64,000 bases of DNA from Nocardioides sp. S5 (GTDB lineage: Bacteria > Actinomycetota > Actinomycetes > Propionibacteriales > Nocardioidaceae): contig NZ_CP022296.1 of NCBI RefSeq assembly GCF_017310035.1, forward strand, positions 2,852,001 to 2,916,000. Direction: 5' to 3'. Every line of letters starts with the position of its first letter. Position 1 is the first letter of the stretch. Positions 37,735-63,698 of the stretch are shown here, in pieces. The notes under the pieces are model-generated. The model was not told the origin of the DNA. It was given only the letters and a program-made list of their open reading frames with translations, and searched no databases. A program made the position numbers and the translations under genes.

Positions 37735-37786
37735 GATCCTTCTCCTTCCGGACCTTGCACTGCGGCGGTACGCCGCTCGCTGACCG

Positions 37787-38760: not shown

Positions 38761-38819
38761 GCTGATCACCACCGTTGTCGTCGGTCCGGGCCTCGTTGCC
38801 CGGAATGGTGATCAGGAGT

Positions 38820-38961
38820 GGTCTCTCCCGTCCCGGTTATGGGACCCGGTCGCCGGGCCGATCAGTCGGGGTGACAGCCGTGGTGACGTGCGACCGGAGG
38901 TGGGGTACTCCCCAACCCTGATGTACGTAGATCGTATCACGAAGCTTTCTTCGCATGTCAA
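38820..38961 (-). promoter_or_regulatory. Promoter and structured leader A (baeRF copy 1 operon)
   Basis: Read leftward. -35 TTGACA at 38961-38956, overlapping the stop of the HTH gene; spacer contains CGAAG-AAAG-CTTCG; -10 near TACGAT (38936-38931). Transcript leader then has box 1 GGGGAGTACCCC (38913-38902), an internal CGTCACCACGG, and box 3 GGGAGAGACC (38829-38820). The same parts recur at 50,9xx, 53,2xx and 56,4xx. The boxes resemble those of the yybP-ykoY manganese riboswitch as I remember them; no fold or model search could be run. Confidence 0.6.
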
Positions 38962-39251
38962 GGGGTGGCGGTGGTCTTGTTGACGAGGTCGACGAAGGCG
39001 CCGATGGTGACTCCGGACTCGAGGTCGTGGCGGAAGTGGGAGTCGCGGGTGACCCGGTACCGGTTGCGCCGACCCACCTTCTCCTTGTCCACGTAGCCGT
39101 GCTCGACCAGGTCCGCGACGATCTGCTGCACCGCCCTCTCGGTGATGCCGACGGCGTCGGCGATGTCGCGGGTCCGCGCGTCCGGGTCGCGCGCGAGGGC
39201 GACCAGGACGTGGCCGTGGTTGGAGAGGAAGGTCCAGTCGTCGCGGGTCAT
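38958..39251 (-). CDS. Winged-helix transcriptional regulator
   Basis: 97 aa MarR/ArsR-like HTH protein: VALARDPDARTRDIADAVGITERAVQQIVADLVEHGYVDKEKVGRRNRYRV is a standard wHTH with wing. It sits between the P-type ATPase gene and promoter A, whose -35 overlaps its stop. The nearby upstream sequence has CGAAACCAGAATCG, loosely like the CGAAG-N4-CTTCG operator, so it is the prime candidate for the regulon's repressor; this is inference. No strong ribosome site before ATG 39251. Confidence 0.75.
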   Translation of the reverse strand: MTRDDWTFLSNHGHVLVALARDPDARTRDIADAVGITERAVQQIVADLVEHGYVDKEKVGRRNRYRVTRDSHFRHDLESGVTIGAFVDLVNKTTATP

Positions 39252-39298
39252 GACGAGCCATGGTACGCGATTCTGGTTTCGTATGTCCCGGGTCGTCC

Positions 39299-42022
39299 TC
39301 AGCCTTCTCGTCGACGCGTGCCCCAGCGGTGGCCGAGCTTGACGAGCTCCTCGACCAACAGCACGCACAGCGCCACTCCGATGCAGATTCCCCACTGCTC
39401 GGGTGTGAGGGCGACGGTGTCGAAGATCGCCTGGCCCCACGTCGTGTGCACGGCTGCGATGTGCAGCAGGGCCACCGTCGTCAGGGACACCCACAGCCAC
39501 CGGTTGGTGAAGGTGTGCGGTGCGAACACGGTGACGTGCTCCGCGCGTGCGTTGAGCGCGTTGACGAGCTGGAAGAGCACGAAGGTGGTGAAGGCCATGG
39601 TCAGGCTGACGGCCTCGCCCCACTCCTCGCGGGCGAGGATGAGGACCGCGAGGGTGCCGATCGCCATCACCAGGCCCACGCGGGCCAGCCTGATCAGTCG
39701 CGCCGGGGAGAGGATCTGATCGCCGCTGCGTCGCGGGGGCTCGGACATGATCCCCGGCCGGGCCGGGTCCACGCCCAGCGCCATTGCGGGCGGGCCGTCC
39801 ATGATGATGTTGACCCACAGGATCTGCACGGCCGTCAACGGGGCCGGCAGCCCCATCACCGAGGCGCCGAGGAAGGTCGAGATGGCGCCCATGTTGGTGG
39901 AGAGCTGGAAGCGCACGAACTTCACCACGTTGTCGTAGATCGAGCGACCCTCCTCGACGGCGCCGACGATGGTGGTGAAGTTGTCGTCGGTGAGGATGAG
40001 GTCGCCCGCCTCCTTGGTGACCTCGGTTCCCGTCAGACCCATGGCCACGCCGATGTGCGCCGAGCGCAGCGCCGCGGCGTCGTTGACGCCATCACCAGTC
40101 ATGGCCACGACATGGCCCCGCGCGGTGAGCGCCTTCACGATGGCGACCTTGTGCTCGGGAGACACCCGGGCGAACACCGCCACCTCGTCGACGACGTCGG
40201 CCAGCTCCTCGGTCGACAGCTCGGAGAGCTCGGCGCCGGTCATCGCGCGGCCCTCGATGCCGAGCTCGCGGGCGATGGCGACGGCGGTCGCGACGTGGTC
40301 GCCGGTGATCATCTTCACCCCCACACCGGCCCGGTGGCACAGGGCCACCGCCGAGGTCGCCTCGGGCCGCGGTGGGTCGGCGATCCCGAGCAGGCCGAGC
40401 AGGGTCAGCGACGCAACGTCGGAGTGTGGCTCGGATGACGGTGACTCGACCAGGCGGGTGGCCACGGCCAGCACGCGCAGTCCGCGCTCGCCCATTGCCG
40501 CGATGGCGTCGTCGAGTCGCTCTCGGTCGGACGCGGTGAGCGCAACCTCCTCGCCGCCGAGCAGCCACGAGTCGCAACGCCGCAGCAGCACGTCGGCCGC
40601 GCCCTTGGCCAGCACGCGGGAAGCGGGACCCTCGTCGTGGTAGGTGACCATGTACTTGTAGTCGGCGTCGAAGGGGATCTCCGCCGATCGCGGCCACTCC
40701 TGACGGCGCGCCGTCACGTCGAGCCCCGCCTTGGCCGCCAGCACGACCAGCGCACCCTCGGTCGGGTCGCCGATGATGCCGGCGCTATCCCCATCCCCGT
40801 CGCCGTCCGCCTTGAGTTCGGCGTCGCTGCACAGGGCGAGTGCGTCGAGCAGCAGCGGCGGCAGGCTTGCTTGCGCGCCGTCGGAGTAGAGGATTTCGCC
40901 GTCGGTGTCGTATCCCTGGCCGTGGACCGTGAGCACGTTCTCGCCCACGCGTACCTCGCGGACCGTCATCTCGTTGAGGGTCAGGGTGCCGGTCTTGTCG
41001 CTGCAGATGACGGTGGCCGAGCCCAGTGTCTCGACCGAGGCCAGCCGCTTGACGATCGCGTTGCGGCCCGCCATCCGGTGCACGCCGAGCGCGAGCGTCA
41101 GCGCCAGTACGGCCGGCAGGCCCTCCGGGACGGTCGCCACCGCGAGCGCCACGGCTCGCAGGGCGATCTCGGAGGGGGCCTCGCCCCGCGCCAGGGCCAG
41201 CGCGACGTACACCGTCACGGCGACGAGCCCGATCACGGCCAGCCGCTTGCCCAGGGTGTCGAGCTGCCGCTGCAGGGGGGTCTGCGGCTCCTCGCCAGTG
41301 GCGAGCATCTCGGCGATGGCGCCGACGGAGGTCTCCATGCCGGTGGCGGTCACGACCGCTTCGGCCCGTCCGCGGGTGAGCGCGGTGTTCATGTGGACCA
41401 TGCCGTCGCGATCTGCGAGGGGGGCGTCGTGTTCTACGGTCGAGTTGGCCCGTTTGGGGACGGGCTGGGACTCACCGGTCAGGGCCGATTCGTCGACCTC
41501 CACCGAGGAGGCGAGGATTAGGCGCGCGTCCGCGGGCACCCGGTCGCCCGCCTCGAGCAGGACGACGTCGCCGGGCACGAGGTCGCCGGCGTCGACGACG
41601 AGGGTTCGCCCGTCGCGCCGGATCCGCGCCGAGGGGCTCAGCATGTTGCGTAGCGCCTCGAGGCTCTTCTCGGCTCGCTGCTCTTGGAAGAACCCGATGC
41701 TGGCGTTGATGAGGAGCACCACGGCGATGACGATGGTGTCCTTGATCTCACCCACGAGGCCCGCGAGGACCGCGGCACCGATGAGCACCAGGATCAGGAC
41801 GCTGCGGAACTGGTCGAGGAAGCGCAGCAGCACCGGTCGGCGTACGGGCTCGGCCAGCTGGTTGGGGCCGAACCGGTCGAGCCGTGTCCGGGCCTCCTCG
41901 CTGCTCAGGCCTTGGGCGGGGTCGACCTCCAGTGTCATGGCCACTTCCTCGGCGCTGGCGGCGTGAGGGTTGCTGAGTGGGGTGCTGTGCGGGGTGGTGC
42001 TGGGGACGGGTGCCGCGGTCAT
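39299..42022 (-). CDS. P2-type cation-transporting ATPase (Ca2+/Mn2+ class)
   Basis: 907 aa. N-terminal cation-ATPase domain, actuator TGES, phosphorylation site DKTGTLTLNE, hinge MTGDGVNDAAALRSA, and helix M4 VATVPEGLPAVLAL typical of P2A/P2-type pumps (no CPx, so not a heavy-metal P1B type). C-terminal six-helix cation domain is complete. Relatives move Ca2+, and some move Mn2+ or Na+. ATGA overlap with the V-ATPase B gene makes it the last gene of that operon, so both pumps are made together. Confidence 0.92.
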   Translation of the reverse strand: MTAAPVPSTTPHSTPLSNPHAASAEEVAMTLEVDPAQGLSSEEARTRLDRFGPNQLAEPVRRPVLLRFLDQFRSVLILVLIGAAVLAGLVGEIKDTIVIAVVLLINASIGFFQEQRAEKSLEALRNMLSPSARIRRDGRTLVVDAGDLVPGDVVLLEAGDRVPADARLILASSVEVDESALTGESQPVPKRANSTVEHDAPLADRDGMVHMNTALTRGRAEAVVTATGMETSVGAIAEMLATGEEPQTPLQRQLDTLGKRLAVIGLVAVTVYVALALARGEAPSEIALRAVALAVATVPEGLPAVLALTLALGVHRMAGRNAIVKRLASVETLGSATVICSDKTGTLTLNEMTVREVRVGENVLTVHGQGYDTDGEILYSDGAQASLPPLLLDALALCSDAELKADGDGDGDSAGIIGDPTEGALVVLAAKAGLDVTARRQEWPRSAEIPFDADYKYMVTYHDEGPASRVLAKGAADVLLRRCDSWLLGGEEVALTASDRERLDDAIAAMGERGLRVLAVATRLVESPSSEPHSDVASLTLLGLLGIADPPRPEATSAVALCHRAGVGVKMITGDHVATAVAIARELGIEGRAMTGAELSELSTEELADVVDEVAVFARVSPEHKVAIVKALTARGHVVAMTGDGVNDAAALRSAHIGVAMGLTGTEVTKEAGDLILTDDNFTTIVGAVEEGRSIYDNVVKFVRFQLSTNMGAISTFLGASVMGLPAPLTAVQILWVNIIMDGPPAMALGVDPARPGIMSEPPRRSGDQILSPARLIRLARVGLVMAIGTLAVLILAREEWGEAVSLTMAFTTFVLFQLVNALNARAEHVTVFAPHTFTNRWLWVSLTTVALLHIAAVHTTWGQAIFDTVALTPEQWGICIGVALCVLLVEELVKLGHRWGTRRREG

Positions 42023-43569
42023 GGCTGGCTCCAGGTGGTGCTCTTGGCGGTGCTCTCGGTGCGCTCGGTGGTGGTGGTGGTGCGGTGGTGCTGGGCGACG
42101 TGGTCGGCCCCGACCCGGCCTAGCTCGTCGGGCTCGAAGTCGCCGAGCAGTTCCCAGCCCAGGTCCAGGGTCTGGGTGATGGTCCGCCGGGCCTCGCCCT
42201 GGCCGACGAACTCCTCCTCGAAGCGACGGGCGAACGCGAGGTAGCGGCGGTCCTCGGCCGTCAGGCCGCTCTCGCCGACGATCGAGACCAGGCGCCGTAC
42301 CTCGACGCCGCGGGCGTAGCAGGCGTAGAGCTGGTCGGCCAGACCCCGGTGGTCGGCCCGCGTACGCCCCGCGCCGACGCCGGCGTTCATCAGCCGCGAC
42401 AGCGACGGCAGGACGTCGAAGGGCGGGTCGACGCCGCGTCCGGCCATGTCGCGCGAGAGGACCACCTGTCCCTCGGTGATGTAGCCGGTGAGGTCCGGGA
42501 TCGGGTGGGTGATGTCGCCGTCGGGCATGGTCAGCAGCGACAGCTGGGTCAAGGAGCCGGTCGAGCCGTGCACCCGTCCCGCCCGCTCGAAGAGGGAGGC
42601 CAGATCGGTGTACATGTAGCCGGGGTAGCCGCGCCGCCCCGGCATCTCCTCGCGGGCCGCGGCGATCTCGCGCAGCGCCTCGCAGTACGCGGTGATGTCG
42701 GTGAGGATCACCAGGACGTGCAGGTGCTTCTCGAAGGCGAGGTACTCGGCCAGCGTCAGCGCCACCCGGGGGGTGAGCAACCGCTCGATGGTGGGGTCGT
42801 CGGCCAGGTTGAGCAACAGCACATTGCGGTGCCCTGATGCGCTGGTGGCGAACTGGTCCCGGAAGAAGTCGGCCTCGCGGCGCGTGACGCCCATCGCTGC
42901 GAAGACGACCACTACTCCCTCGGTCCCGTCGGCCTGGTTGTCGTGTCTGGCCTCGCCGGGCACCCGGGCCTGGATGGCGATCCGGGCGGCCACCTCAGCG
43001 GCGGGCAGCCCGGCCGCGGTGAAGACGGGCAGCTTCTGCCCACGGACCAGGGTGTTGAGGCCATCGATGGCCGAGAAGCCGGTCTCGATGAACTGGTCGG
43101 GGTGGATCCGCGCGACGGGGTTGAGCGGCAGCCCGTTCACCGGCCGGTACGCCTCGGCGGTGGGCTCCGGCCGGCCGTCCCGCGGACGCCCGGCACCGTC
43201 GAGGACGCGTCCCAGTACGTCGGTCCCGACGCCGGTGACCGCTGCGCGGAACCGCGCGCGCACGGCGACGTTGGCCCGGCCCATGCCCTCGGTGCCGCCG
43301 AGCACCTGAACCACCGCGCGGGAGCGGTCCACCTCGAGGACCTGGCCGTCGCGTTCCGTGCCGTCGTCGGTGACGACGGTGACGACGTCGCCGAACGCTA
43401 CGGCCTCGGCGCCCTCGACCAGCAGCAGCGGCCCGGCCACCCGGCGTACGTCGCGCATCTCGATCGTGGGCAGGATGCCCACGGGTGCGACGGCGACGGC
43501 GTCCCGCGCGCGGGTGATCGTGTCCGCGGTGTCTTCCGGGCTGTCTTTGGAGCTGTCCAGCGTGGTCAT
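42019..43569 (-). CDS. ntpB: V/A-type ATPase subunit B
   Basis: 516 aa regulatory, non-catalytic nucleotide-binding subunit. Family stretches: IHPDQFIETGFSAIDGLNTLVRGQKLPVFTAAGLP (no Walker A, as expected), RREADFFRDQF, LNLADDPTIERLLTPRVALT, and EMPGRRGYPGYMYTDLASLFERAGR. The C-terminal tail (about 40 aa, Thr/Glu-rich) is longer than usual. ATGA overlaps join it to subunit A and to the P-type ATPase. Confidence 0.95.
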   Translation of the reverse strand: MTTLDSSKDSPEDTADTITRARDAVAVAPVGILPTIEMRDVRRVAGPLLLVEGAEAVAFGDVVTVVTDDGTERDGQVLEVDRSRAVVQVLGGTEGMGRANVAVRARFRAAVTGVGTDVLGRVLDGAGRPRDGRPEPTAEAYRPVNGLPLNPVARIHPDQFIETGFSAIDGLNTLVRGQKLPVFTAAGLPAAEVAARIAIQARVPGEARHDNQADGTEGVVVVFAAMGVTRREADFFRDQFATSASGHRNVLLLNLADDPTIERLLTPRVALTLAEYLAFEKHLHVLVILTDITAYCEALREIAAAREEMPGRRGYPGYMYTDLASLFERAGRVHGSTGSLTQLSLLTMPDGDITHPIPDLTGYITEGQVVLSRDMAGRGVDPPFDVLPSLSRLMNAGVGAGRTRADHRGLADQLYACYARGVEVRRLVSIVGESGLTAEDRRYLAFARRFEEEFVGQGEARRTITQTLDLGWELLGDFEPDELGRVGADHVAQHHRTTTTTERTESTAKSTTWSQP

Positions 43570-45416
43570 CGCTGCTCCTCCTCGTCGGTGGTGAGTGCCG
43601 CGCGCTCCTCAGTAGCGCGCTCTTTGGTGGTGAGTGCGGCGTGCATGGTCGAGACGGCGTCGTCGAGGTGTCGCTCGAGCGTGTCGTCGACCGGCCAGCC
43701 ACGTGCTGCGGCGACCGTGCGCAGGACGGGGTGGGCGACGACGTCGGCGACGGGTCGCCCGGCGGTGACCGCAGCGGTCATGGCCTCCTCGGCCGACTTG
43801 ATCAGTCGCAGCATCGTGACCTGCTTGGCCGGCGGACAGCTGGCGTCGGCGGGGTCGAAGGAGTTCTGCTGCAGGTAGTCCTCGCGGAGCATGCGACCCA
43901 CGCGCAGGGTGACTCGCTGGGGCGGCGCTACCGCCTCCACGCCCAGGAGGCTGACCACCTCCTGCAGGCTCCCTTCCTCCTGCAGCGTGCGGACGGCCCA
44001 GGCGCTGAGGCGCGACCAGTCCTCGGCGACGTGCTCGTCGAACCACTCGCCCAGCCGGTAGGTGGTGTAGCTGCGTGTCCAGTTGATCGACGGGAAGTGG
44101 CGGCTGCGGGCCAGGCTCGCATCGAGCGCCCAGAAGCATCCGGCCACGCGCAGGCTGTTCTGGGTGACCGGCTCGGAGAAGTCCCCGCCTGCGGGCGACA
44201 CGGCGCCGACGACGGTGACCGACCCGCTACGCGGGGTGGAGCCGAGGCAGTCGACGAGCCCGGCGCGCTCATAGAAGGCCGCGAGGCGGGTGGCGAGGTA
44301 GGCGGGGTAGCCGTCCTCGGCCGGGATCTCGCCGAGACGACCCGACACCTCGCGCAGTGCCTCGCCCCAGCGGCTGGTGGAGTCGGCGAGCAGGACGGCG
44401 TGCAGGCCTTGGTCGCGGTAGTACTCGGCCATCGTGATGCCGAGGTAGACGCTGGCCTCCCGGGCCGCGACCGGCATGTTGGAGGTGTTGGCCACGAGCA
44501 CGGTCCGCTCCATCAGGGGGCGACCGGTGCGCGGGTCAGAGAGCTGTGGGAACTCCTCGAGCACCTCGGTCAGCTCGTTGCCCCGCTCGCCGCAGCCGAC
44601 GTAGACCACCACGTCGGCCTCGGCGTGCTTGGCGATCGCCTGCTCGAGCACCGTCTTGCCGGTGCCGAATCCGCCGGGGATGATGCCGGCACCGCCGAGG
44701 GCGATCGGGAAGAGGCTGTCGAGGACCCGCTGGCCGGTGAGCAGCGGGCGGTGCAGGGCCTGGTGTCCCCGCACGGGACGGGGCCTGCGGATCGGCCAGC
44801 GTTGCAGCATTTGCACGTCGTGGCCCTGGACGCGGGCGATGACCTCGTCGACGCGGTGCGACCCCTCCGCGACGTGCTCCACCACGCCGCGGACGCCCGG
44901 CGGCACCAGGACGCGGTGGCGCAGCGCTGTGGTCTCCTGCACGGTCCCGAGCTCGTCGCCCGCCTCCACGCGGTCGCCCGCCACCACGGACGGCACGAAC
45001 TCCCAGGTCCGGGAGCGGTCGAGGCCGGGCAGGTCGGCGCCGCGCGGGATGTAGATGCCGTGTTCGGCGTTCAGGGCGGCGAGCGGGCGCTGGGTGCCGT
45101 CGAACACGGTGCCGAGCAGCCCGGGGCCGAGTTCGATGGTCAGCGGTCCCCCGGTGCCGGTCACGGGGTCGCCGACGCGCAGCCCCGAGGTGTCCTCGAA
45201 GACCTGTACCGTGGCCAGGGCGCCGTCGAGGCGGATCACCTCCCCGGGCAGGTCCTGCGGGCCGACCTTGACCACGTCGTAGAGCCGGCACGCGGGTAGG
45301 CCAGCGACCTCGAGGACTGGGCCCGAGACCCGCACCACCGTCCCGACCTGGTCGCCGGAACCGGCCGGCGCGCCGCCGTGTGTCGTGCTCGGCATCGTGG
45401 TGGGTGTCGTGCTCAT
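43566..45416 (-). CDS. ntpA: V/A-type ATPase catalytic subunit A
   Basis: 616 aa. Walker A GGFGTGKT (the common form is GAFGCGKT), catalytic Glu region in GCGERGNELTEVLEEFP, Walker B in HAVLLADSTSRWGEAL, and the VSPAGGDFSEPVTQ stretch of A subunits. The A-type non-homologous insertion (GTVFDGTQRPL..) is present, separating it from F-type beta. Start ATG 45416 overlaps the F-subunit stop. The C-terminus is rich in Glu and Thr. Confidence 0.95.
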   Translation of the reverse strand: MSTTPTTMPSTTHGGAPAGSGDQVGTVVRVSGPVLEVAGLPACRLYDVVKVGPQDLPGEVIRLDGALATVQVFEDTSGLRVGDPVTGTGGPLTIELGPGLLGTVFDGTQRPLAALNAEHGIYIPRGADLPGLDRSRTWEFVPSVVAGDRVEAGDELGTVQETTALRHRVLVPPGVRGVVEHVAEGSHRVDEVIARVQGHDVQMLQRWPIRRPRPVRGHQALHRPLLTGQRVLDSLFPIALGGAGIIPGGFGTGKTVLEQAIAKHAEADVVVYVGCGERGNELTEVLEEFPQLSDPRTGRPLMERTVLVANTSNMPVAAREASVYLGITMAEYYRDQGLHAVLLADSTSRWGEALREVSGRLGEIPAEDGYPAYLATRLAAFYERAGLVDCLGSTPRSGSVTVVGAVSPAGGDFSEPVTQNSLRVAGCFWALDASLARSRHFPSINWTRSYTTYRLGEWFDEHVAEDWSRLSAWAVRTLQEEGSLQEVVSLLGVEAVAPPQRVTLRVGRMLREDYLQQNSFDPADASCPPAKQVTMLRLIKSAEEAMTAAVTAGRPVADVVAHPVLRTVAAARGWPVDDTLERHLDDAVSTMHAALTTKERATEERAALTTDEEEQR

Positions 45417-45829
45417 GGGTGGTCTCCTTCGGGGACGAAGCTGATCTCGTAGCCGACCGCTCGTCCGAGCAGTCGCTGGAGCTGGTCGTGGGGCTCGGTG
45501 TCCACGGCCGGGGCGTCGGGCGGGAGGCCGACCACGAGGACGTCGGTGCGCTCGGCCCAGGCATCGCGGGCGGCGAGTGGCAGTCGAATCCACGCGTCGT
45601 GGTGCACCAGGACCACCGCGCGGCCGTCGCCGGGCAGGCGCACAGCTGTCTCGACAGCTCTGTTGACGGCGTCGGCTCCGATCTCCCCGTCCGGGCCGGG
45701 CTCGGGCACCACCGTCGCGGCGCCCGCGAGGCGGAAGCCCGCGTCGACGTCTCGCGGAGCCACCACGACGACCTCCGAGTCCACTTCTGAGTCCATCCGT
45801 GGCGCTGAGGGGGTAAGCGCGTTCGTCAC
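45413..45829 (-). CDS. V/A-type ATPase subunit F
   Basis: 138 aa (NtpG of Enterococcus, AtpF of Thermus). Begins with a 15-residue extension, then VVVVAPRDVDAGFRLAGA, AVVLVHHDAWIRLP and the VLVVGLPPDAPAV strand, the Rossmann-like pattern of the small central-stalk subunit. GTG 45829 overlaps the subunit C stop (GTGA); its stop overlaps the subunit A ATG. Confidence 0.82.
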   Translation of the reverse strand: MTNALTPSAPRMDSEVDSEVVVVAPRDVDAGFRLAGAATVVPEPGPDGEIGADAVNRAVETAVRLPGDGRAVVLVHHDAWIRLPLAARDAWAERTDVLVVGLPPDAPAVDTEPHDQLQRLLGRAVGYEISFVPEGDHP

Positions 45830-47339: not shown

Positions 47340-47340
47340 G

Positions 47341-47562: not shown

Positions 47563-47567
47563 GTGTG

Positions 47568-49661
47568 TCACCTTTCGTGGGTGGCGTCGGCGATGCGGAC
47601 GCCGTTGGTGGTGCCGTGCGGCGGGACGCCGACCGGGTCGAAGGTTGGGGTGAGGAGTGGGCCGAGCGGTCGGTCGCGGGGTGGGGTCAGGAGTGCGCGG
47701 GGGTTGAGGGCCCCGTGGGCGCCGAGGGGTTGGAAGGCCTGGCCCTCGCCGTCGTGGAACTTGCTGAAGAACTCGACGTAGTGCAGTCGCAGGGCCTGGA
47801 CCATCGGGCTGAACGCCGCCAGACCCAGGTTGAGCAGGTGCAGCAGGACGGCGACGAACAGTCCGATGAGGAGGGGCAGCTCGGTGGCGAGCTCGTTGGC
47901 GACGTTGGCGAGGTAGACCGAGGCGAGTCCCACCGCGGCGACCCGGAGGTAGGACAAGACGTTGCCGACCGTGCCGATGAGCTCGAGTGGGCCGAGGAGG
48001 GCGCCGATGGGGCCGTGCACGGAGCTGGTGGCCACGAGTCCCACGACGGCGGGGACCAGCGCGGCGAGGGTGACCCACGAGGGGGCGTTCAGGATGGTGG
48101 CCGCGATGGCCGCGGTCGCGCCGAGCAGGACGGCCAGGGTGCCGCCCACCTCGAGGGTGCGGTGCCGGTCGCCACGGCGCAGCGCGGTCACCAGGCCGAG
48201 GGTCAGGCCGAGCACGATGTGGGACCAGCCGAGGGCGACGGCGAAGAGCAGGAGGGGCTCGAGGGCCTCGGGTCCGCCGCGGTAGAACCACAGCGCCGGC
48301 ATCCCCCACATGTTGCCGAGGCTGCCGAGCGCCTCGCCGAACATCACGCCCCACAGCACCGCCCACGCACCGCCGGCGATCAGGACGCGGCCGGCGTCGT
48401 CCATCACCCCGCCTTCCACACCGCCGCGGTCGTGCGTGCGTGCCCGGTGGCGCAGCCACCAGCCGATGCCGGCGAGCGCGGCGCCGTAGACGACGTCGCC
48501 GACCATGACACCGAAGAGGAACGGCAAGAAGATCGCCATCAGTCCGGTCGGGTCCAGCCCGTTCGGGGAGGGCCAGGAGAGGAACCCGACCAGGCGGCGG
48601 TAGGGGGACCATGCGGCGCGTCCGGTCAGCTCCACCGGGGAGGGGCCGGGGACCTCGCCCGCCGGGGCGTCGACGACGGCCACGTCGGCGAGGCCGTCGC
48701 GGTCGAGCTGCTCGCGCACCTCGCGGCGACGGTCTGCCCGCACCCAGCAGCGCAGGAGGAAGGTGCGCTCGGAGAGCGCGGCGGCCGCGACCGCGGCGTC
48801 GCGTTCGGTCAGCACGAGCAGCGCACGCGCGGCGGCGCGCAGCCCGGGGGCCTCGCGGAGCCAGAGCGCGTCGAGGTCGGCGCGGACGGCGTCGAGGTCG
48901 GCCTGGAGGTCGACGAGCCGGGCGCGCATCCGCACGAGCGTGGTGTGCAGGGACAGGTGGGCGTAGTCCTCGGGTACCTCGACCCGGCTGATCTCATCCG
49001 CGCCCATGAGACCGAGGACCTCGGGCAGCCGGTCGCGGGCCACCACCAGGAGGCAGCCGCGGGCGCGGCCGGCGTCCGTACTGCGGAGCATGAACCCGTT
49101 GCCGGCGAGCTGCCGCAGCTGGGTCTCGAGCAGTCCGACCACGGCCCCGGCCGGGTCGTCGAGCACCAGCGCGGTCATCGCCAGTCCCAGCAGCTCGAGC
49201 TCGGCATCGGAGAGCGAGGTCAGCTCCGGCACGAGGGTCTCGAGCTGGGCGAGGACGTCCACGTAGCGCGCCAGCGCGTCGCGCTCCTCCTCCAGCGAGG
49301 CCTGGGCCCCGCGCAGGGACTCGACCTCGAGCTCGAGCGTCGCGATGTTGACGTCGGCGTCGCGCGGGTCCACCGGTGCGGCGTCCGCGCTCCGGCGTGG
49401 CGACTCGCGTGCCAACGAGGCATCTGACGGCGCCCACTCCAGCAGGCGTTGCACCCGGGCCAGCAGGTCCCGCCTGGCCATACGGTCCTCACCCTTGTTC
49501 GCAGCCGGGTCTGCAACCGGGTCCGCAGCCTTGTCCGCACTGCCGGTCGGCGCCCCGGATGGCGTCACCTCGGCGACCCCGGCTCGCTGGAGCGACTCGA
49601 CCGTCTCGAGCAGCTGCTCGCGTCGGCCCAGGAGCTGGACGTGGTGCAGTCGGCGGATCAT
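47568..49661 (-). CDS. ntpI: V/A-type ATPase subunit I (a-type)
   Basis: 697 aa. A soluble N-terminal half with long coiled coils, then about eight membrane helices; FLPFLFGVMVGDVVYG, the GEALGSLGNMWGMP region, LSYLRVAAVGLASVYLANVANEL (with the ion-path Arg) and the end SPMVQALRLHYVEFFSKF are family marks. ATG 49661 overlaps the preceding stop (ATGA); the frame upstream of it is antisense-like repeat. Start context MIRRLHHVQLLG matches family N-termini. Confidence 0.93.
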   Translation of the reverse strand: MIRRLHHVQLLGRREQLLETVESLQRAGVAEVTPSGAPTGSADKAADPVADPAANKGEDRMARRDLLARVQRLLEWAPSDASLARESPRRSADAAPVDPRDADVNIATLELEVESLRGAQASLEEERDALARYVDVLAQLETLVPELTSLSDAELELLGLAMTALVLDDPAGAVVGLLETQLRQLAGNGFMLRSTDAGRARGCLLVVARDRLPEVLGLMGADEISRVEVPEDYAHLSLHTTLVRMRARLVDLQADLDAVRADLDALWLREAPGLRAAARALLVLTERDAAVAAAALSERTFLLRCWVRADRRREVREQLDRDGLADVAVVDAPAGEVPGPSPVELTGRAAWSPYRRLVGFLSWPSPNGLDPTGLMAIFLPFLFGVMVGDVVYGAALAGIGWWLRHRARTHDRGGVEGGVMDDAGRVLIAGGAWAVLWGVMFGEALGSLGNMWGMPALWFYRGGPEALEPLLLFAVALGWSHIVLGLTLGLVTALRRGDRHRTLEVGGTLAVLLGATAAIAATILNAPSWVTLAALVPAVVGLVATSSVHGPIGALLGPLELIGTVGNVLSYLRVAAVGLASVYLANVANELATELPLLIGLFVAVLLHLLNLGLAAFSPMVQALRLHYVEFFSKFHDGEGQAFQPLGAHGALNPRALLTPPRDRPLGPLLTPTFDPVGVPPHGTTNGVRIADATHER

Positions 49662-50065
49662 CGGCTCGCCTTCGGGGTCCGGTCGGCCCGCTGGGCCACG
49701 GTCGGGGCCACGGTCGGGGCCACGGGCGGGGTCACGGTCGGGGCGACGGTCAGGACGGCGGCGACGGTGGCGGCGACGAGCTCCTCCCGCAGGCGCACGG
49801 CCCGCTGCGTCACCTCGACGCCGATCCGCTGCTGTTCGGCCTCGTCGGCCTGTACCCATTCGCGTGCCTCCTGCAAGATACGCGCGGACAGGCGGTCGGC
49901 TTCCGCGGCGGCTTCCGCGGCGAACTCCCCCACGAGGAGCTCCGCCTGCTCCCGGGCCGCGACAACGCGGGCGTTGCTCTGCCGCGCCTCCTCGAGACGG
50001 GCCTCGATAAGCCGCTCTAGCTCGCGCACCTGGCGCATCGCGGCCGGATCCTGCATCTGCGTCAT
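49658..50065 (-). CDS. V/A-type ATPase stalk subunit G/H
   Basis: 135 aa (NtpF/AtpG-like). Almost wholly coiled coil (MRQVRELERLIEARLEEARQ, AEAAAEADRLSARILQEA), followed by a C-terminal Pro/Thr/Val repeat TVAPTVTPPVAPTVAPTVAQ coded by an imperfect 15-bp tandem repeat (about 49,690-49,755). It pairs with subunit E in the peripheral stalk. The repeat tail is unusual for the family. Coupled by ATGA on both sides. Confidence 0.78.
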   Translation of the reverse strand: MTQMQDPAAMRQVRELERLIEARLEEARQSNARVVAAREQAELLVGEFAAEAAAEADRLSARILQEAREWVQADEAEQQRIGVEVTQRAVRLREELVAATVAAVLTVAPTVTPPVAPTVAPTVAQRADRTPKASR

Positions 50066-50748
50066 CGCCGTTCCTCCTCGTCGGGTCGCGGCACGGGAGG
50101 ATGGTCCGGTGCCGGTCGGTCCTGCGGGACGCGACGTCGCTCCCGCGCCCGCTTCAGGCGGGAGTGCTCCTCACGCTCGCGCTCCTCGAGGACCGCGGTG
50201 ATGTGGGCGGCCTCCTCCTCGAGTCCGGGGATGACGACGTTCTCGAGCGCGTTGACCTGGCGCGTGGTGCGGGCCACTTCCTCGGTGAGCCGGCGCACCG
50301 TGGCCTCGAGGGCCACGAAGCGCAGGACGTGCTCGAGGTACCGCTCGTAGGCCTCCGCCGCCGCCTCGATCGACGGGGCCACCAGCACCGGTGCCGCGCC
50401 GCGCTCCTCGGCCGTCCGTCGCAGGTCGTTGGCCTGCACCGTCACGACCCGCACGCCGACCACCATGCGGTCCTCGCGCTCGGCGACGACGCCGTTGGCC
50501 GCACCCGACGCGACCGCCGCGACGGCGGCCGGGCCCTCGTCGGCGGTGCTCTCGTCGAGCAGCGCGCGAGCCTCCCGGGCGAGGACGGCGGCGGCCTCAC
50601 GCTGGGCGGACACGTCTGCGTCGAGACGGTGCAACTCGCGCACCAGGGCCATCCGCTTGTCGACCAGAAGGTCACGGCCCTGGGCCGCGAAGGCGATCGC
50701 CGAGCGACGCCGCAGCAGCTCGGTCCGGGTCGCGGTCAGGGCCGTCAT
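50062..50748 (-). CDS. ntpD: V/A-type ATPase subunit D (central stalk)
   Basis: 228 aa. Two long helices flank a short middle; MTALTATRTELLRRRSAIAFAAQGRDLLVDKR and the C-terminal VARTTRQVNALENVVIPGLEEEAAHI are textbook D-subunit pieces. In Thermus and Enterococcus D comes last; here it is first, giving D-G-I-K-E-C-F-A-B. ATG 50748 is chosen since it overlaps the TGA of a 27-aa leader frame (ATGA). Confidence 0.92.
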   Translation of the reverse strand: MTALTATRTELLRRRSAIAFAAQGRDLLVDKRMALVRELHRLDADVSAQREAAAVLAREARALLDESTADEGPAAVAAVASGAANGVVAEREDRMVVGVRVVTVQANDLRRTAEERGAAPVLVAPSIEAAAEAYERYLEHVLRFVALEATVRRLTEEVARTTRQVNALENVVIPGLEEEAAHITAVLEEREREEHSRLKRARERRRVPQDRPAPDHPPVPRPDEEERR

Positions 50749-50828
50749 CGCCGCCACCCCGCAGGGCCGACCCGCCCGGGCGGACGGCGCCGATCCTTCA
50801 GCCGGTCACGAAGTAGCTGAGTATTCAC
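50745..50828 (-). CDS. 27-aa leader peptide coupled to ntpD
   Basis: GTG 50828 has a good ribosome site (GGGAGG, 8 nt upstream) and the frame's TGA overlaps the ntpD ATG. The product is basic: MNTQLLRDRLKDRRRPPGRV followed by GPAGWRR. Position after the structured leader and ATGA coupling suggest it carries ribosomes to ntpD. Its short run of Arg and Pro codons could matter for translation. Small size keeps confidence modest. Confidence 0.45.
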   Translation of the reverse strand: MNTQLLRDRLKDRRRPPGRVGPAGWRR

Positions 50829-50856
50829 GGAGAATGCCTCCCGACAGTGGTCGGAA

Positions 50857-50996
50857 GGTCTTCCCCGCCACACCCCGGGAGGTGTGGTCGGCCACCGGGT
50901 CGCAGGACGACCGGAGTGACGATGGCCGGTTGGTGGGGTACTCCCCTTCAAGGGTTTCTTACGCATCAGATTACGTGAATCGTGCTGCGGTGTCAA
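50857..50996 (-). promoter_or_regulatory. Promoter and structured leader B (V-ATPase operon)
   Basis: Read leftward: -35 TTGACA (50996-50991), exact 17-bp spacer, -10 TAATCT (50973-50968). The spacer is a degenerate form of the CGAAG-N4-CTTCG operator. Leader: box 1 AAGGGGAGTACCCCACC (GGGGAGTACCCC at 50946-50935), CATCGTCACTCC, then box 3 variant GGGGAAGACC (50866-50857). About 110 nt later come the small leader frame and ntpD. Same organisation as leaders A, C and D. Confidence 0.65.
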
Positions 50997-51004
50997 GGTT
51001 GGCA

Positions 51005-52138
51005 CTAGCGCCGCAGGACCAGCGCAATCCGGTCATGGTTCGCGAGGTCGCCGTCGGCCACCAGCGCCAGCTGGCCGCCCATCAAGATCACCTGCTCCAT
51101 CAGGTCGTCCACCAAGTCATGCACGTCGCCGGCCCCGGAGGCATCCCCGGAGGCGTTCCCTGAGGAGTTCGCAGGAGCCCCGCGTCCGGGTGCCGTCGTG
51201 CCTGGACTGATGAAGTTCTCCTCGACCAGCAGCATCGCGGGCAGGCGTCGCCCGAGGGCCCGCCAGCACTGCTCGATGCCCGAGGCCACGTCCGTGGGTC
51301 GATCCGACTCTGCCTGGCGCAGCAGCGCGAGTGCGTCGTCGCGTCGTGTCCGCAGGTACGCCTCGACGGACGTGATGCCGGCCAGGGCCAGGTCGAGGGC
51401 CGTGGCGCAGTCGCGGTCATCAACCCGCCCGGCGAGCCGCTCCAGATTGGCACTGAGGGAGCAGAACTCCTCGAGCAACCGCGGCGGACCCACCAGCACG
51501 AGCGGGCTCGGGTGGTCGGCCCGGTAGTCGCCCAGCATCCGGTCGACCTTGCGCAGGAACCTGGCCATCAGCTCCGTTCGGGCCTCGGCGGCGCCCGGCT
51601 GTCCGGCACCCGGCACCCGGATCGGCCGCCCCGAGCCAAACGGCTCGGACCGTCCCACTGGGCGCAGTCCGCCGTCCTCGGAGGCGTACAGGTGGGCGCA
51701 CGTGGGGTGTAGCAGCAGCACGGCGTGGGGTGGCATGCGGTGCAGGGCCGCGATGAGCGGCCGAGTGGCGAAGGTGCTCTCCACCACCGCCCGGGCGGTC
51801 ACCGACTGTGGCAGCCGGAACGAGCGGGCGACGGCCCGGTTCACGTAGATGCACAGCCCCAGGTCGGTCGGCTGGTCTCCCGCGCGGTCGACCTGCTCGG
51901 CCAGCTTGTCCAGCAGCGCGGACCGGTTCATCACGCCACGCTCGGCGAGCGTGTGTTCCACGTCTCGGACCAGGTCGTCCAACCTCGACCGGTCCTCCCT
52001 GGTCATGCGCGGGGACGGCTTCGTCGGCAGGAGGACCGAGATGCACGGAAAGCCGGAGGTGATCGCCAGGTCGGCGATGTCCCTGGTCCTCAGCGCCACC
52101 GGCGAACCGCCCGCCTTGGGACGCGTGCGGGGGCTCAT
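51005..52138 (-). CDS. baeRF family-3-like (eRF1-related) protein, copy 2
   Basis: 377 aa, paralogue of the protein at 36,556. Shared marks: FPCISVLLPTKP, AVVESTFATRPLIAALHRMPPHAVLLL, SPLVLVGPPRLLEEF, ASGIEQCWRALG, PAMLLVEENF, and the ending HDLVDDLMEQVILMGGQLALVADGDL. A low-complexity Gly/Ser/Asn insert (SSGNASGDASGAG) precedes the last domain. ATG 52138 overlaps the terC stop (ATGA), so it is made with TerC from promoter C. Confidence 0.75.
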   Translation of the reverse strand: MSPRTRPKAGGSPVALRTRDIADLAITSGFPCISVLLPTKPSPRMTREDRSRLDDLVRDVEHTLAERGVMNRSALLDKLAEQVDRAGDQPTDLGLCIYVNRAVARSFRLPQSVTARAVVESTFATRPLIAALHRMPPHAVLLLHPTCAHLYASEDGGLRPVGRSEPFGSGRPIRVPGAGQPGAAEARTELMARFLRKVDRMLGDYRADHPSPLVLVGPPRLLEEFCSLSANLERLAGRVDDRDCATALDLALAGITSVEAYLRTRRDDALALLRQAESDRPTDVASGIEQCWRALGRRLPAMLLVEENFISPGTTAPGRGAPANSSGNASGDASGAGDVHDLVDDLMEQVILMGGQLALVADGDLANHDRIALVLRR

Positions 52139-53106
52139 CGCAGCACCTCGTCCTCGTCGGACGCGTGGGCCGGCGTCGCGTGGGGGGCGACGGTGGCCTG
52201 GTCACGAGTCGCGCGGAGACTGGCGATGACCGCAACGGCGATGCAGCTGGCGATCACGCCGAGGGAGAGCCAGATCGGAACCTTGTAGACGTCGAGGAGC
52301 AGCATCTTGATGCCGACGAAGACCAAGATCGCGGCGAGGCCGGCCTTGAGGTAGATGAAGCGGTCGATGAGATCGGCGAGCAGGAAGTACATCGCTCGAA
52401 GGCCCAGGATGGCGAAGGCGTTGCTGGTGAAGACCAGGAACGGGTCCTGGGTGACGGCGAAGATCGCGGGGATGGAGTCGACGGCGAAGATGATGTCAGT
52501 GGTCTCGACCATGATGAGGACGAAGAACAGCGGCGTGGCCACCCACTTGCCCGCCTGCTTCACCCAGAACTTCTGCCCGTGGTACTCCTCCGTCGAGGGG
52601 ATCTTCCTCTTGGCCAGTGCCAGCAGCTTGTTGCGCGAGAGGTCCATCTGGTCGTCGCGGTGGCGGAACATCTTCCAGCCCGTGTATACGAGGAAGGCGC
52701 CGAAGAGGTAGAGGATCCAGGCGAAGTTCTCGATCAGGACCGCGCCACCGGCGATGAAGATCGCCCGGAAGACCAGTGCCCCGAGGACGCCGTAGAACAG
52801 GACCCGGTGCTGGTACTCCCGCGGCACGGCGAAGTAGGTGAAGATCAGCGCGAAGACGAAGACGTTGTCGACCGCCAGCGACTTCTCGATCAGGTACCCG
52901 GCGTAGTACTCGCCGCCGGCCTGGGCGCCGTAGGCCCACCAGACGATGCCGCCGAACGTCAGGCCGAGGCTGACCCAGACCGCGGACCAGGCGGCAGCCT
53001 CCTTGACACCGACGACGTGAGCGGTGCGGTGGGCGAACAGGTCGATCGCCAGCATCACGACGATGACGCCCAGCACCGCCGCCCAGGCCCAGAAGGGAAC
53101 ATCCAT
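52135..53106 (-). CDS. TerC/Alx-family membrane protein
   Basis: 323 aa, eight or nine membrane helices. Family acidic motifs LAVDNVFVFALIF and VETTDIIFAVDSIPAIFAVTQDPFLVFTSNAFAILGLRAMYF are intact; a cytosolic loop with KIPSTEEYHGQKFW lies between the halves. E. coli Alx and relatives export Mn2+ and are under a yybP-ykoY riboswitch, which fits the leader seen here. GGAGG lies 10 nt before ATG 53106. Confidence 0.92.
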   Translation of the reverse strand: MDVPFWAWAAVLGVIVVMLAIDLFAHRTAHVVGVKEAAAWSAVWVSLGLTFGGIVWWAYGAQAGGEYYAGYLIEKSLAVDNVFVFALIFTYFAVPREYQHRVLFYGVLGALVFRAIFIAGGAVLIENFAWILYLFGAFLVYTGWKMFRHRDDQMDLSRNKLLALAKRKIPSTEEYHGQKFWVKQAGKWVATPLFFVLIMVETTDIIFAVDSIPAIFAVTQDPFLVFTSNAFAILGLRAMYFLLADLIDRFIYLKAGLAAILVFVGIKMLLLDVYKVPIWLSLGVIASCIAVAVIASLRATRDQATVAPHATPAHASDEDEVLR

Positions 53107-53160
53107 GACAGCTATACCTCCAGCGTGACCACTCGACCAACAGCCGAGCGTGACGTTGGA

Positions 53161-53300
53161 GGTCTCCCCCGCCGCCCGGTCCGTGGACCTGGCGACCGCC
53201 GCACCGGACCGGGCAGGGCCGGTCGAACTGTCGATGTCAGCGAGGGTGGGGTACTCCCCTCATGCGCTACAGTATTCACGAAGCACACTTCGGAAGTCAA
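53161..53300 (-). promoter_or_regulatory. Promoter and structured leader C (terC operon; shared with heliorhodopsin)
   Basis: Read leftward: -35 TTGACT (53300-53295), spacer of 18 with a perfect CGAAG-TGTG-CTTCG inverted repeat, -10 AATACT (53276-53271). Leader: box 1 GGGGAGTACCCC (53259-53248), then box 3 GGGGGAGACC (53170-53161), about 98 nt between them; the CGTCA element seen in A, B and D is not clear here. The operator also lies 40-50 bp before the rightward heliorhodopsin ATG, so one repressor could control both genes. Confidence 0.65.
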
Positions 53301-53322
53301 GTCCCGCACACGAGGAGCGACC

Positions 53323-54123: not shown

Positions 54124-54138
54124 CCTCACCACTGGAGC

Positions 54139-55707
54139 TCACCACTGGCTGCTGCCGCAGTTCGGAGCGTCGGCGAGTCGCCGTTCGACGTCGGCGCGGA
54201 CCAGGACGTTGTACCCGCAGATCGTGGCGGCCGGCTCGTAGTGCTCCTCGATCATGGAGCGGAGTCGGCCGTCGTCATCGATGTCCCACGAGTTCACCCC
54301 GTTCAACACGACGAACCAGGTCGGCCGCGAGGGTCCGTCGAGCAGGCGCTCGAGGCGCTGCTGGTCCGGGTCGAGGGTCCGCATCGGCAGGCTCCAGAGG
54401 TAGGGGTAGGGAGTGGGCAGGTCGGCCGCCTCCACGACCTGCGAGTTCCCGTACGCGACCACCATCGTGTCGCCCTCCTCGGCGGAGTCGGCCACCCACC
54501 CGCCGATGAGCTGGGGGTACCACAGCCGCGGCGAGGCCTGGTAGGCGAGCGTGGTGGTGGCCACTGCCCCCAGCGACGCGACCGCCGCCCACAGCGCCAA
54601 GCCGCGCATCAGCCGCCGCCCGGCGCCACGGCCGGCGCTCACCAGACCCGCCGCGAGGCCCGCAGCGGGAGCCAACGCCTGCAGGTAGTCCAGCCAGTAG
54701 CTCCCCCCGACCACGATGCCGATCGCGCTCCACCCGAGCAGGGCGAGCAATGCCCACTGCTCGGCCGCGAGAGGGCGAGGCCGACGCAGCAACCCAACCA
54801 GCCAGGTCATCACGACAGGCACAGCCGCACTGGCCACGGCGGCGAGCACGAGGAGCCGAGCGCGCTCCATCGGTGCCGAGTGGTGGGACGCGGCCAGCAC
54901 CTGTCCCGCCTCGACACGGAAGGCGATCACGTCCTCCCACATCACGTCCATCGCGACCCCCTTGAGGTGGGCCCACGCCGCCAGCGCTGCGACGACGACG
55001 ACGGTGCCCGCACCGAAGCCGGCGGCCAGCGTGCCGAGCCGCGTCCGAGACCCCGGATGCCGCAGCGCCGAGACCGCGATCAGCACCCCGGCGAAGGCGA
55101 ACGCGTCGACGAAGTTCTGCTTCGCCAACGGCGCAGCGGCAGCGAGCACACCGGCGACCAGCCCCCAGCCGACGGTCGTGCGGAGGTCACCGGCTCGCCA
55201 ACCGTGCAGAATCGCGGCGATGCTACCCGTGACGAAGAGGAGCGCGAACATCACGCCGTCGGCCTGATCGGCCGCCAGCGCCGGGGAGCACATCAGAGCC
55301 GCCGTCACCACCGCTGCCCACCTCGCCGCGACCGGGCCGGCCAGCAGGCCGGCGGCGCGAGCGGTCGCCAGCACGATCGCCACGACCACCGGGATCGTGA
55401 TGACCCGGATCGCCGCGTCGGTGTCCCACAGGGCCGCCAGGCGGAAGAACGCCATCAGCAACGGCGGCCGGTCGACGTGGAAGTCGCCGTAGATGAACTC
55501 GCCCTCGCCCGGCGCCCAGTGGCGCGCAGCATGCAGGTACCCACCCTCATCGGAACGAATCGGCTGGGCCACGAAGACCGAGCGAACCGCCACTACAGCC
55601 GCACAGGTCAGCCACAGGACACGCGTGGTGACGCGCTCGTCGTACGAACGACCGGGCCGATTCGCGGGACCGGGCGCTGCCGGGCGGTCCGCCAGCGCGG
55701 TGTCCAT
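54139..55707 (-). CDS. ArnT/GT39-type membrane glycosyltransferase
   Basis: 522 aa, about eleven helices. The first loop has RSDEGGYLHAARHW, the acidic loop of GT-C enzymes (DE pair), followed by the DRPPLL motif. The soluble C-terminal part begins near SPRLWYPQLIGGWVADSAEEG. Such enzymes use polyprenyl-phosphate sugars to modify cell-surface lipids or proteins. Start ATG 55707 overlaps the DUF2784 stop (TGATG). Last gene of the operon from promoter D. Confidence 0.8.
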   Translation of the reverse strand: MDTALADRPAAPGPANRPGRSYDERVTTRVLWLTCAAVVAVRSVFVAQPIRSDEGGYLHAARHWAPGEGEFIYGDFHVDRPPLLMAFFRLAALWDTDAAIRVITIPVVVAIVLATARAAGLLAGPVAARWAAVVTAALMCSPALAADQADGVMFALLFVTGSIAAILHGWRAGDLRTTVGWGLVAGVLAAAAPLAKQNFVDAFAFAGVLIAVSALRHPGSRTRLGTLAAGFGAGTVVVVAALAAWAHLKGVAMDVMWEDVIAFRVEAGQVLAASHHSAPMERARLLVLAAVASAAVPVVMTWLVGLLRRPRPLAAEQWALLALLGWSAIGIVVGGSYWLDYLQALAPAAGLAAGLVSAGRGAGRRLMRGLALWAAVASLGAVATTTLAYQASPRLWYPQLIGGWVADSAEEGDTMVVAYGNSQVVEAADLPTPYPYLWSLPMRTLDPDQQRLERLLDGPSRPTWFVVLNGVNSWDIDDDGRLRSMIEEHYEPAATICGYNVLVRADVERRLADAPNCGSSQW

Positions 55708-56126
55708 CACCCGGGCTCGGCTCCTGGTGAGCTCGCGCTCGCCGTCGCGGCTTGTTCGCCGGCACCCTGCTCCGCACGCCGTCGGAGCCGCAACACCACG
55801 TAGGCGTACGTCGCGAGGATGACCACCAGGTGGGTCGCGTACACGAAGGTCTGGGTGCCGTCGGGGAGCAGGATCCCGAAGACGTAGTGGTCGAGGAAGG
55901 AACCGGAGTACGGCGTGCCACCGGCGCGTTCGACCAGGTCCTTCTCGAGCACCGTCAGGGGACAGCTGCCCTGAGTGATGACGATGCCGACCCCCCACGA
56001 CACCACGGCGAGGTGCGGGACGAACCACACCCGCGACACGAGGGCAAGCAGGGCGCCGAGCATCTGGAAGACCAGGAACGCCAGGTGCAGGAGGACGACG
56101 GCCCACGCCATCAGGGTCCAGGCCAT
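55707..56126 (-). CDS. DUF2784 membrane protein
   Basis: 139 aa, four hydrophobic helices; WGVGIVITQGSCPLTVLEKDLVERAGG and SFLDHYVFGILLPDG are the DUF2784 pattern. GAGGGG lies 7 nt upstream of ATG 56126. Role unknown. First recognised gene after leader D, coupled to the GT39-type gene. Confidence 0.82.
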   Translation of the reverse strand: MAWTLMAWAVVLLHLAFLVFQMLGALLALVSRVWFVPHLAVVSWGVGIVITQGSCPLTVLEKDLVERAGGTPYSGSFLDHYVFGILLPDGTQTFVYATHLVVILATYAYVVLRLRRRAEQGAGEQAATASASSPGAEPG

Positions 56127-56193
56127 CGCAGTACCCCTCTCGGCCCTCGCCCGCCAGTGACGCCAAGGATGACGGAGCCGCTCGCCGGGGCGG

Positions 56194-56337
56194 TCACATC
56201 CACCGCTGGCGGGGCGTCCGCGGTTTGGTCGCTACGACCATGCGTCGGACCGCACTGACGAGACGACCACCTGGAGAGGCGAACCAGGTTGGCCACGCCC
56301 CTTGGGTCCGACCGGAGACCTGAATCTTGAACATCAT
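56194..56337 (-). CDS. Possible 47-aa small frame in leader D
   Basis: ATGATG start after GGGTGGTGTCC, basic product (MMFKIQVSGRTQGAWPTW at the start, many Arg later). It lies between leader D and the DUF2784 gene, in the same place as the small frames after leaders A and B. No family, no strong ribosome site; could be spurious. Confidence 0.25.
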   Translation of the reverse strand: MMFKIQVSGRTQGAWPTWFASPGGRLVSAVRRMVVATKPRTPRQRWM

Positions 56338-56385
56338 GGACACCACCCGAATCTCGGCGAGCCGTTCCTACGTCTCGCTGCGGAT

Positions 56386-56507
56386 GGTCTCTCCCGTCCC
56401 TGGCGGGACCGGGCTCCGGGAGCCGTTGGCACCGTGTTGACGAAGCCCGCCACGGGGATGCTCCCCATTGCACAAACCAGTATTCATGCTTTCGTCATCG
56501 TTTTCAA
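56386..56507 (-). promoter_or_regulatory. Promoter and structured leader D (DUF2784-GT39 operon)
   Basis: Read leftward: -35 TTGAAA (56507-56502), 17-bp spacer, -10 AATACT (56484-56479), the same -10 as promoter C. Leader: box 1 variant GGGGAGCATCCCC (56466-56454), CTTCGTCAACACGG, then box 3 GGGAGAGACC (56395-56386). The CGAAG operator is poorly kept. About 260 nt separate box 3 from the DUF2784 ATG. The CGTCAACA piece is the copy most like the manganese riboswitch consensus I recall. Confidence 0.62.
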
Positions 56508-63655: not shown

Positions 63656-63698
63656 GTCGGCCTCCTCGGGTCGTGACGCTCGTCGGACATCCGGAGCC

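Follow-up and report, generated by a model that had tools for sequence, protein, structure and literature searches.

The canonical manganese riboswitches of the yybP-ykoY class, such as those of Escherichia coli alx and mntP, Lactococcus lactis yoaB and Xanthomonas oryzae, combine a P1.1-L1-P1.2 leg carrying GGGGAGUA and GAGACC, an L3 loop with a Mn2+ adenosine, metal-exporter targets and a P1.1 3' arm that serves as the switch. In the solved structures, L3 reads UCA41AU43UC (L. lactis) or ACA48U49ACU52 (X. oryzae) (PMC6754395), and the Mn2+ ion contacts N7 of A41 or A48 together with phosphates (PMC6754395, PMC9190785). The mntP leader of E. coli has been reported as a translational ON switch (PMC9603457). 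yybP-ykoY leaders of Corynebacterium glutamicum have been listed as Rfam matches, one of them before the terC gene cg2157 (PMC3890552), and the class is thus already known in actinobacteria. Here we describe a stretch of 64,000 nucleotides (nt) from Nocardioides sp. S5 (contig NZ_CP022296.1, positions 2,852,001 to 2,916,000; hereafter the window, to which coordinates refer unless another locus is named) in which four operons are each preceded by a similar leader, A to D. We put at roughly 0.9 the probability that these leaders are a compact actinobacterial form of the yybP-ykoY Mn2+ riboswitch, the binding of Mn2+ being deduced from the loops that they share with the canonical class. The riboswitch class itself is known; what is new is the compact form, which lacks the P2 hairpin, and its regulon.

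A preliminary description of the window had reported one promoter-plus-leader module before four operons, and inspection of the sequence found all four leaders, read leftward, at the sites it gave, with their shared motifs and promoters. The motif order common to A-D is GGGGAGYAYCCC, CGUCA (variably present) and GGGRAGACC. The string GGGGAGTACCCC occurs in A (38902-38913), B (50935-50946) and C (53248-53259), and leader D carries the variant GGGGAGCATCCCC, which starts at 56466; the 3' element is GGGAGAGACC in A and D, GGGGAAGACC in B and GGGGGAGACC in C, and CGTCA is found in A, B and D, with CGACA instead in C. The -35 boxes of A, B, C and D are TTGACA, TTGACA, TTGACT and TTGAAA, followed by AT-rich -10 boxes. 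Searched on both strands, the pattern GGGGAGNAYCCC has exactly four matches in the 64 kb, all of them in the leaders, against 0.23 expected, and none of 100 shuffles gave four or more; a looser pattern allowing one mismatch has 15 matches against 10.1 expected in the window and is thus unremarkable. The module is not confined to four operons, since the covariance model R2 (below) finds six copies in the genome (each with E 1.3e-11 or better), the two extra ones (G000:C1:82467-82576 and C1:883259-883374) each standing directly before a terC gene. The next R2 match in this genome has an E value of 8.6 (L068). Weak own-genome matches (L034-L036, none better than E 0.14) were rejected, as they sit within or next to open frames and do not show the loop motifs.

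A motif-pattern search yielded 23 places, of which 14 were kept by eye, together with window leader B, and nine were dropped (L006, L007, L009, L011, L015, L016, L017, L019 and L023), L007 as a CRISPR-like array of GGCTCACCCCCACGTGCGTGGGGAGGAC repeats picked up by this search and the others as chance. RNAalifold, run on a MAFFT alignment (A1) with no structure supplied, recovered the helices P1.1 and P1.2 unaided plus a few further pairs and saw no more than this because MAFFT misaligned P3. Work therefore continued from a subgroup alignment (A2) of seven leaders, of the extra terC type only, and the covariance model R1 built from it. R1, which was made without leader A, then recovered all four window leaders (E values in Table 1); the model R2 had leader A in its training set. 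The fold consists of the switch helix P1.1, the internal loop L1, P1.2 and a three-way junction with P4 and P3, the latter carrying the bulge loop L3, flush on the 3' side. In an alignment of 17 sequences, pairing holds in 92.7% of cells and double changes occur in 23 of the 28 pairs (89 such cells against 27.9 in shuffles); in 105 matches the values are 95.8% and 26 of 28 pairs (821 cells against 284). These counts are biased towards the structure, since each alignment was fitted to it and related sequences are involved. When the partner was slid in the 105-match alignment, pairing fell to 34-51%. The 105 matches come from 100 sources, picked mostly among the better-scoring listed matches, and are thus not a random sample. 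Conserved secondary structure among homologous leaders had been proposed as one check on the module, and the strong covariation, along with the recurrence of the leader in relatives, favours it.

The two loops point to the class. L1, between P1.1 and P1.2, reads GGAGUA in 104 of 105 matches, with RAGA on the opposite side in all 105. The consensus of the Rfam family RF00080 shows GGGGAGUAGC and CGUCAACAUACU, and from this consensus and the known structure we take the GGAGUA/RAGA loop to be the family's L1. L3 is UCANNNC in 80 of the 105, UCACUAU in one, of the ACANNNU/ACAGUUC types in 19 and GACA... in five; CA stands at columns 62-63 in 100, and the five GACA... loops are offset by one. Compared with the published L3 letters, this asymmetric loop keeps the Mn2+-binding adenosine after C (PMC6754395). 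R1 also matches two of the five places that RF00080 finds in 149 genomes of the phylum (L027, E 7.5e-7; L029, E 7.7e-6), and three of the 11 RF00080 matches in the class (G298, G421, G463) overlap R2 matches listed; the R2 matches listed do not extend to a further six. The weak RF00080 matches L025, L027 and L029 precede TerC/UPF0016 genes. L029, which is followed by a terC gene, is the only sequence to have P2, alongside a 7-nt L3 as in the compact form; P2-bearing relatives are under-sampled, as the model behind the set drew mostly on sequences lacking P2. The leaders described here thus share with the canonical riboswitches the leg, the L3 adenosine, the exporter targets and the switching arm, and differ in lacking P2, which leaves a three-way junction, in an L3 of usually 7 nt, in being GC-rich and under Rfam detection, and in targets that include V-ATPase, Balon-like and DUF2784 operons. 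Similar to the leaders of C. glutamicum, they probably represent an actinobacterial Mn2+ riboswitch before terC, but the former scored 44-50 bits with the Rfam model of the time whereas ours have no RF00080 match (PMC3890552). The NiCo riboswitch likewise responds to metal ions and has helical legs arranged about a junction, but the loops found here are those of the Mn2+ class (PMC6754395).

R2 matches at E<=0.01 were found in 129 of 147 genomes of the genus, in 187 of 296 genomes of the class (74 of 114 genera) and in 40 of 149 genomes of the phylum, whereas RF00080 on the same draws matched 11 of 296 in the class and 5 of 149 in the phylum, none above its cut-off; R2 was trained on actinobacterial sequences, so its better performance there is expected. 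By position, a TerC (68) or UPF0016 (23) gene starts no more than 400 nt downstream in 91 of the 105 matches, and the remainder precede V-ATPase D (2), a baeRF protein (1), the leader D protein (1) or no recognised target (10). Targets were open reading frames (ORFs) of at least 80 amino acids (aa) starting within 400 nt after the RNA with a phmmer match at E<=1e-3 to one of 13 references, and the set includes close relatives and the loci of the references themselves. Among the ten, window leader A and L112 are leader A types with the baeRF gene further downstream, L012 runs off its locus, and the second match of L098 has no ORF. The other six were scanned with Pfam, which identified a PGPGW membrane protein in L042 (1642-1971) and a GreA/GreB C-terminal domain protein in L096 (1345-1908) and gave no match for the downstream proteins of L084, L105, L122 and L123. 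In L084, L105 and L122, from other members of the class, alike proteins of 278-292 aa directly follow the riboswitch, possibly a new Mn2+-linked family.

How the leader might act is suggested by its expression platform. In the five leaders tested (A-D and E, another of the six own copies), the P1.1 3' arm (CC...) is also complementary to the ribosome-binding site (RBS), at -12.9 to -18.4 kcal/mol against -5.4 to -12.0 kcal/mol with the aptamer arm, and GGGGAGUACCCC can close on itself at -6.9 to -7.9 kcal/mol. Since the arm can pair with the RBS in all five, we infer a translational ON switch, a mode of action that fits the leaders, with Mn2+ as the presumed trigger. Over 103 loci the pairing of the arm with downstream sequence averages -16.0, against -12.3 with shuffled and -12.6 with swapped downstream sequence, and in 54 of these loci five or fewer of 100 shuffles are as good. 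In an ensemble calculation with the aptamer forced, the RBS window opens in B (0.19 to 0.42), D (0.19 to 0.36) and E (0.20 to 0.48). When no metal is bound, the GGGG on the 5' side would fold onto CCCC and the P1.1 3' arm would pair with the RBS, holding expression OFF. When metal is present, L3 would dock on L1 around a single Mn2+ that, as in the known structure, phosphates and the N7 of the L3 adenosine would coordinate; this would lock P1.1 and so free the RBS (ON). The targets turned ON here would be TerC exporters, the operon of a V-ATPase and a PMR1-like pump, two Balon-like factors and the DUF2784 operon. Leader-peptide attenuation was rejected, as by eye no sequence is common to the ORFs that come first after leaders A, B and D.

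Several observations weigh against the compact-riboswitch reading, its switch or its reach. RF00080 ('Manganese') gave no match to the scanned leaders at its cut-off or at E<=10, and Rfam scans of the window and leaders returned chance-like matches only, with no NiCo match. The solved structures have a four-way junction, which is absent here, and 104 of 105 matches have no P2 hairpin, their linker of 7-12 nt being too short or (at 12 nt) unpaired on folding; in leader C, moreover, L3 begins with ACA rather than UCA. The other three RF00080 places in the phylum (L025, L026, L028) escape R1 at E<=10, and among the 11 matches in the class G206 and G261 escape R2. As for the switch, the number of shuffles per 100 as good as the real sequence is 0 for E, 9 for D, 10 for A, 19 for C, 46 for B and 49 for the sixth copy, so that only E among the six own copies falls at five or fewer, and with the aptamer forced the RBS hardly opens in C (0.27 to 0.31) and does not in A (0.05 to 0.05). 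The link to the V-ATPase depends on a single island in several copies (84-100% identical DNA): the leader precedes V-ATPase genes in the window and in the relatives L129-L132, all of which are such copies; the V-ATPase genes on a Pseudonocardia plasmid (with a P-type ATPase) and the operon on a Rubrobacter plasmid have no R2 match directly upstream.

An alternative is a sister class of riboswitches that shares the fold but senses another ion or signal (e.g., Ca2+, Zn2+ or alkaline pH alone): the junction is compact and not recognised by RF00080, the regulon holds a V-ATPase and a pump nearest the PMR1 type, and the alx and mntP switches of E. coli also respond to alkaline pH (PMC9603457). We consider this unlikely, as the L3 adenosine and the flanks tied to Mn2+ specificity are retained and most neighbours encode TerC or UPF0016, the same as before the weak RF00080 matches L025, L027 and L029. 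A wholly new riboswitch class was rejected because the loops and targets fit the Mn2+ class. The module of the preliminary description is real, one structured leader before four operons, but a leader of unknown kind is not supported: the RNA is most probably a divergent version of the yybP-ykoY riboswitch, an identity which that description missed.

A very unlikely alternative places control mainly at the DNA level, with a winged-helix protein binding CGAAGN4CTTCGTGA promoters and the leaders passive. The promoter spacers of A and C do hold this dyad exactly, it occurs within two mismatches in 10 of 112 leaders checked (including L129, a near-identical copy of C), and a winged-helix gene adjoins the leader in the window, in L012, L060, L102, L112 and L128 and on the Pseudonocardia plasmid, where a 56% identical protein is encoded before the same riboswitch. 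Yet the other 102 leaders keep the RNA structure and have no dyad within two mismatches, B and D have 5-mismatch versions only, and at three mismatches the dyad reaches 21 matches in the window where 10.9 are expected; the compensatory changes, moreover, sit in the RNA. RNA and DNA layers may coexist, and our guess is that the winged-helix protein binds the promoter dyad and so adds a second regulatory layer to the riboswitch. A separate dyad, CGAACTAGAGTTCGTGA at 57809-57825 (minus strand), resembles that of the A and C promoters and also an actinobacterial LexA box. Finally, that the four leaders are recent duplicates of one, alike by descent and without function, is hardly credible: they do lie within 17.7 kb of one island with core motifs identical or nearly so, but their arms differ with pairing kept, their downstream genes differ, the RNA is present in 74 of 114 genera with 91 of 105 copies before TerC or UPF0016, and the covariation already contradicts this reading.

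Table 1. Predicted features of the leaders and their operons in the window.
Feature	Coordinates	Strand	Evidence or remark
Leader A aptamer, Mn2+-riboswitch-like (predicted); promoter just upstream	38810..38924	-	R1 28.3 bits, E 5e-5; R2 59.7 bits
Leader B aptamer (predicted), upstream of V-ATPase/P-ATPase operon	50847..50956	-	R1 55.5 bits, E 2.9e-12
Leader C aptamer (predicted), upstream of terC and baeRF gene; L3 is ACAGUUC	53151..53269	-	R1 41.7 bits, E 1.4e-8
Leader D aptamer (predicted), upstream of DUF2784 operon	56376..56476	-	R1 35.7 bits, E 5.3e-7
Dyad CGAAGAAAGCTTCGTGA, promoter spacer of A, candidate operator	38937..38953	-	0 mismatches
Dyad CGAAGTGTGCTTCGTGA, promoter spacer of C, candidate operator	53276..53292	-	0 mismatches
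Small winged-helix regulator (predicted), last gene before leader A	38958..39254	-	Weak ArsR/SmtB, CmtR and MntR matches under cut-off
65-aa ORF, first start codon after leader A	38563..38760	-	Homologue in L112
259-aa ORF, family unassigned, 4-nt overlap with 65-aa ORF	37787..38566	-	No Pfam match for longer form 37787-38689
baeRF/Balon-like protein, leader A operon	36556..37896 (longest frame; start probably ~37.6 kb)	-	NF052287 117.5 bits
TerC/Alx family metal exporter (predicted)	52135..53106	-	PF03741 5.1e-58; TIGR03718 R_switched_Alx 435.3 bits, cut-off 246.4 passed
baeRF/Balon-like protein, 4-nt overlap with terC	51005..52138	-	PF18845 8.7e-13; NF052287 139.6 bits
27-aa ORF, first start codon after leader B, overlaps V-ATPase D frame	50745..50828	-	
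V-ATPase subunit D	50062..50757	-	PF01813 1.9e-35
V-ATPase subunits I, c, E, C/d, A	43566..49859	-	Pfam (subunit E under cut-off); subunit A also NCBIfam
V-ATPase subunit B	42019..43569	-	Pfam
P-type ATPase, closest to PMR1/SPCA pumps, overlaps V-ATPase B by 4 nt	39299..42022	-	TIGR01522
47-aa ORF, first start codon after leader D	56194..56337	-	
DUF2784 protein, leader D operon	55707..56126	-	PF10861 1.1e-22
Protein named GT39 in the preliminary description	54139..55728	-	0 Pfam families at E<=1

The baeRF proteins of the leader A and C operons are 36% identical, and the only NCBIfam match of both is NF052287, the AOC03_06830 ribosome-hibernation family, at scores (with 181.2 bits for the plasmid homologue) under its cut-off of 330 bits. 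AOC03_06830 is Balon, and PDB entry 8rd8 belongs to the Balon paper (PMC10901736); the leader C protein, the one of the two that was compared, matches 8rd8 over its full length (E 5.9e-8, residues 23-376 of 377). In these respects the two proteins resemble the Balon factors, and they are likely ribosome-hibernation factors; they differ from Balon in falling under the NCBIfam cut-off, and their hibernation activity is a prediction from sequence. On a plasmid of Pseudonocardia broussonetiae, an R2 match of 62.8 bits precedes a 190-aa ORF and a Balon-like protein, which scores 181 bits to the AOC03_06830 family and is 30% identical to the leader A protein. Of all observations, finding the arrangement again in a distant copy argues most strongly that the putative riboswitch-Balon link is no coincidence. 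Among the 101 A6 matches outside the window, surveyed over mostly 1.5-1.9 kb of downstream DNA per locus, a baeRF homologue lies downstream only in L069, L128, L112 and, weakly, L060; L022, which continues L012, also shows one. With homologues in so few relatives, the link is not general. UPF0114/YqhA membrane proteins are encoded downstream of the Balon-like gene both in the window (35468-36166, minus strand) and on the plasmid (L158, 20871-21344, minus strand).

In the leader B operon, the P-type ATPase scores 762.5 bits with TIGR01522, below the cut-off of 798.3 although still the best among 22 models, and its top PDB match is calcium-transporting ATPase type 2C member 1 (E 2.3e-182). A plasmid of Rubrobacter radiotolerans has a weak R2 match (L159 1658-1739, minus strand; 18.8 bits, E 0.0018) that is not before its V-ATPase operon. 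Beside the island are Mrp-type Na+/H+ antiporter genes (58607-63742, minus strand), before which neither R1 nor R2 detects an aptamer. The names given to the downstream genes in the preliminary description were mostly correct, except that 'GT39' in the leader D operon has no support from Pfam or from any NCBIfam model (run on 54139-56166).

The 12.7-kb stretch that holds leaders B, C and D (44065-56757) is 99.9% identical in records of Janibacter terrae and Nocardioides flavus, a sign of recent exchange across genera, and 84% identical in N. ferulae; Jiangella muralis has about 8 kb in common at 88%, leader B included. The divergent copies argue for a transfer of the island between genera, and contamination of draft records is also possible. 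The 27-aa frame after leader B is kept in the Jiangella copy and is not recognisable in N. ferulae. The leader C type baeRF homologue of the Jiangella copy matches in two frames (L054 775-1451; L131 5069-5745) and may therefore be broken or misassembled.

In the literature searched, we found no description of a P2-less Mn2+ riboswitch, nor of a Mn2+ riboswitch controlling V-ATPase or Balon genes, which is weak evidence of absence as subscription papers were mostly outside reach; the words riboswitch and manganese have no occurrence in the main text of the Balon paper (PMC10901736). Taking all of the above together, we see about an even chance that an island which moves between genera is coordinated by a compact Mn2+ riboswitch, widespread in Actinomycetes and missed by Rfam, and that metal (and perhaps alkaline) overload would directly trigger ribosome hibernation along with metal export, the V-ATPase and the PMR1-like pump. 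Such a riboswitch would fill a gap, in that none of the 296 class genomes yields an above-cut-off match to the Rfam Mn2+ model whereas 187 are matched by the compact model. The compact form would also be a test case for a Mn2+ aptamer that works without P2, and it would tie metal sensing to ribosome hibernation and V-ATPase expression.

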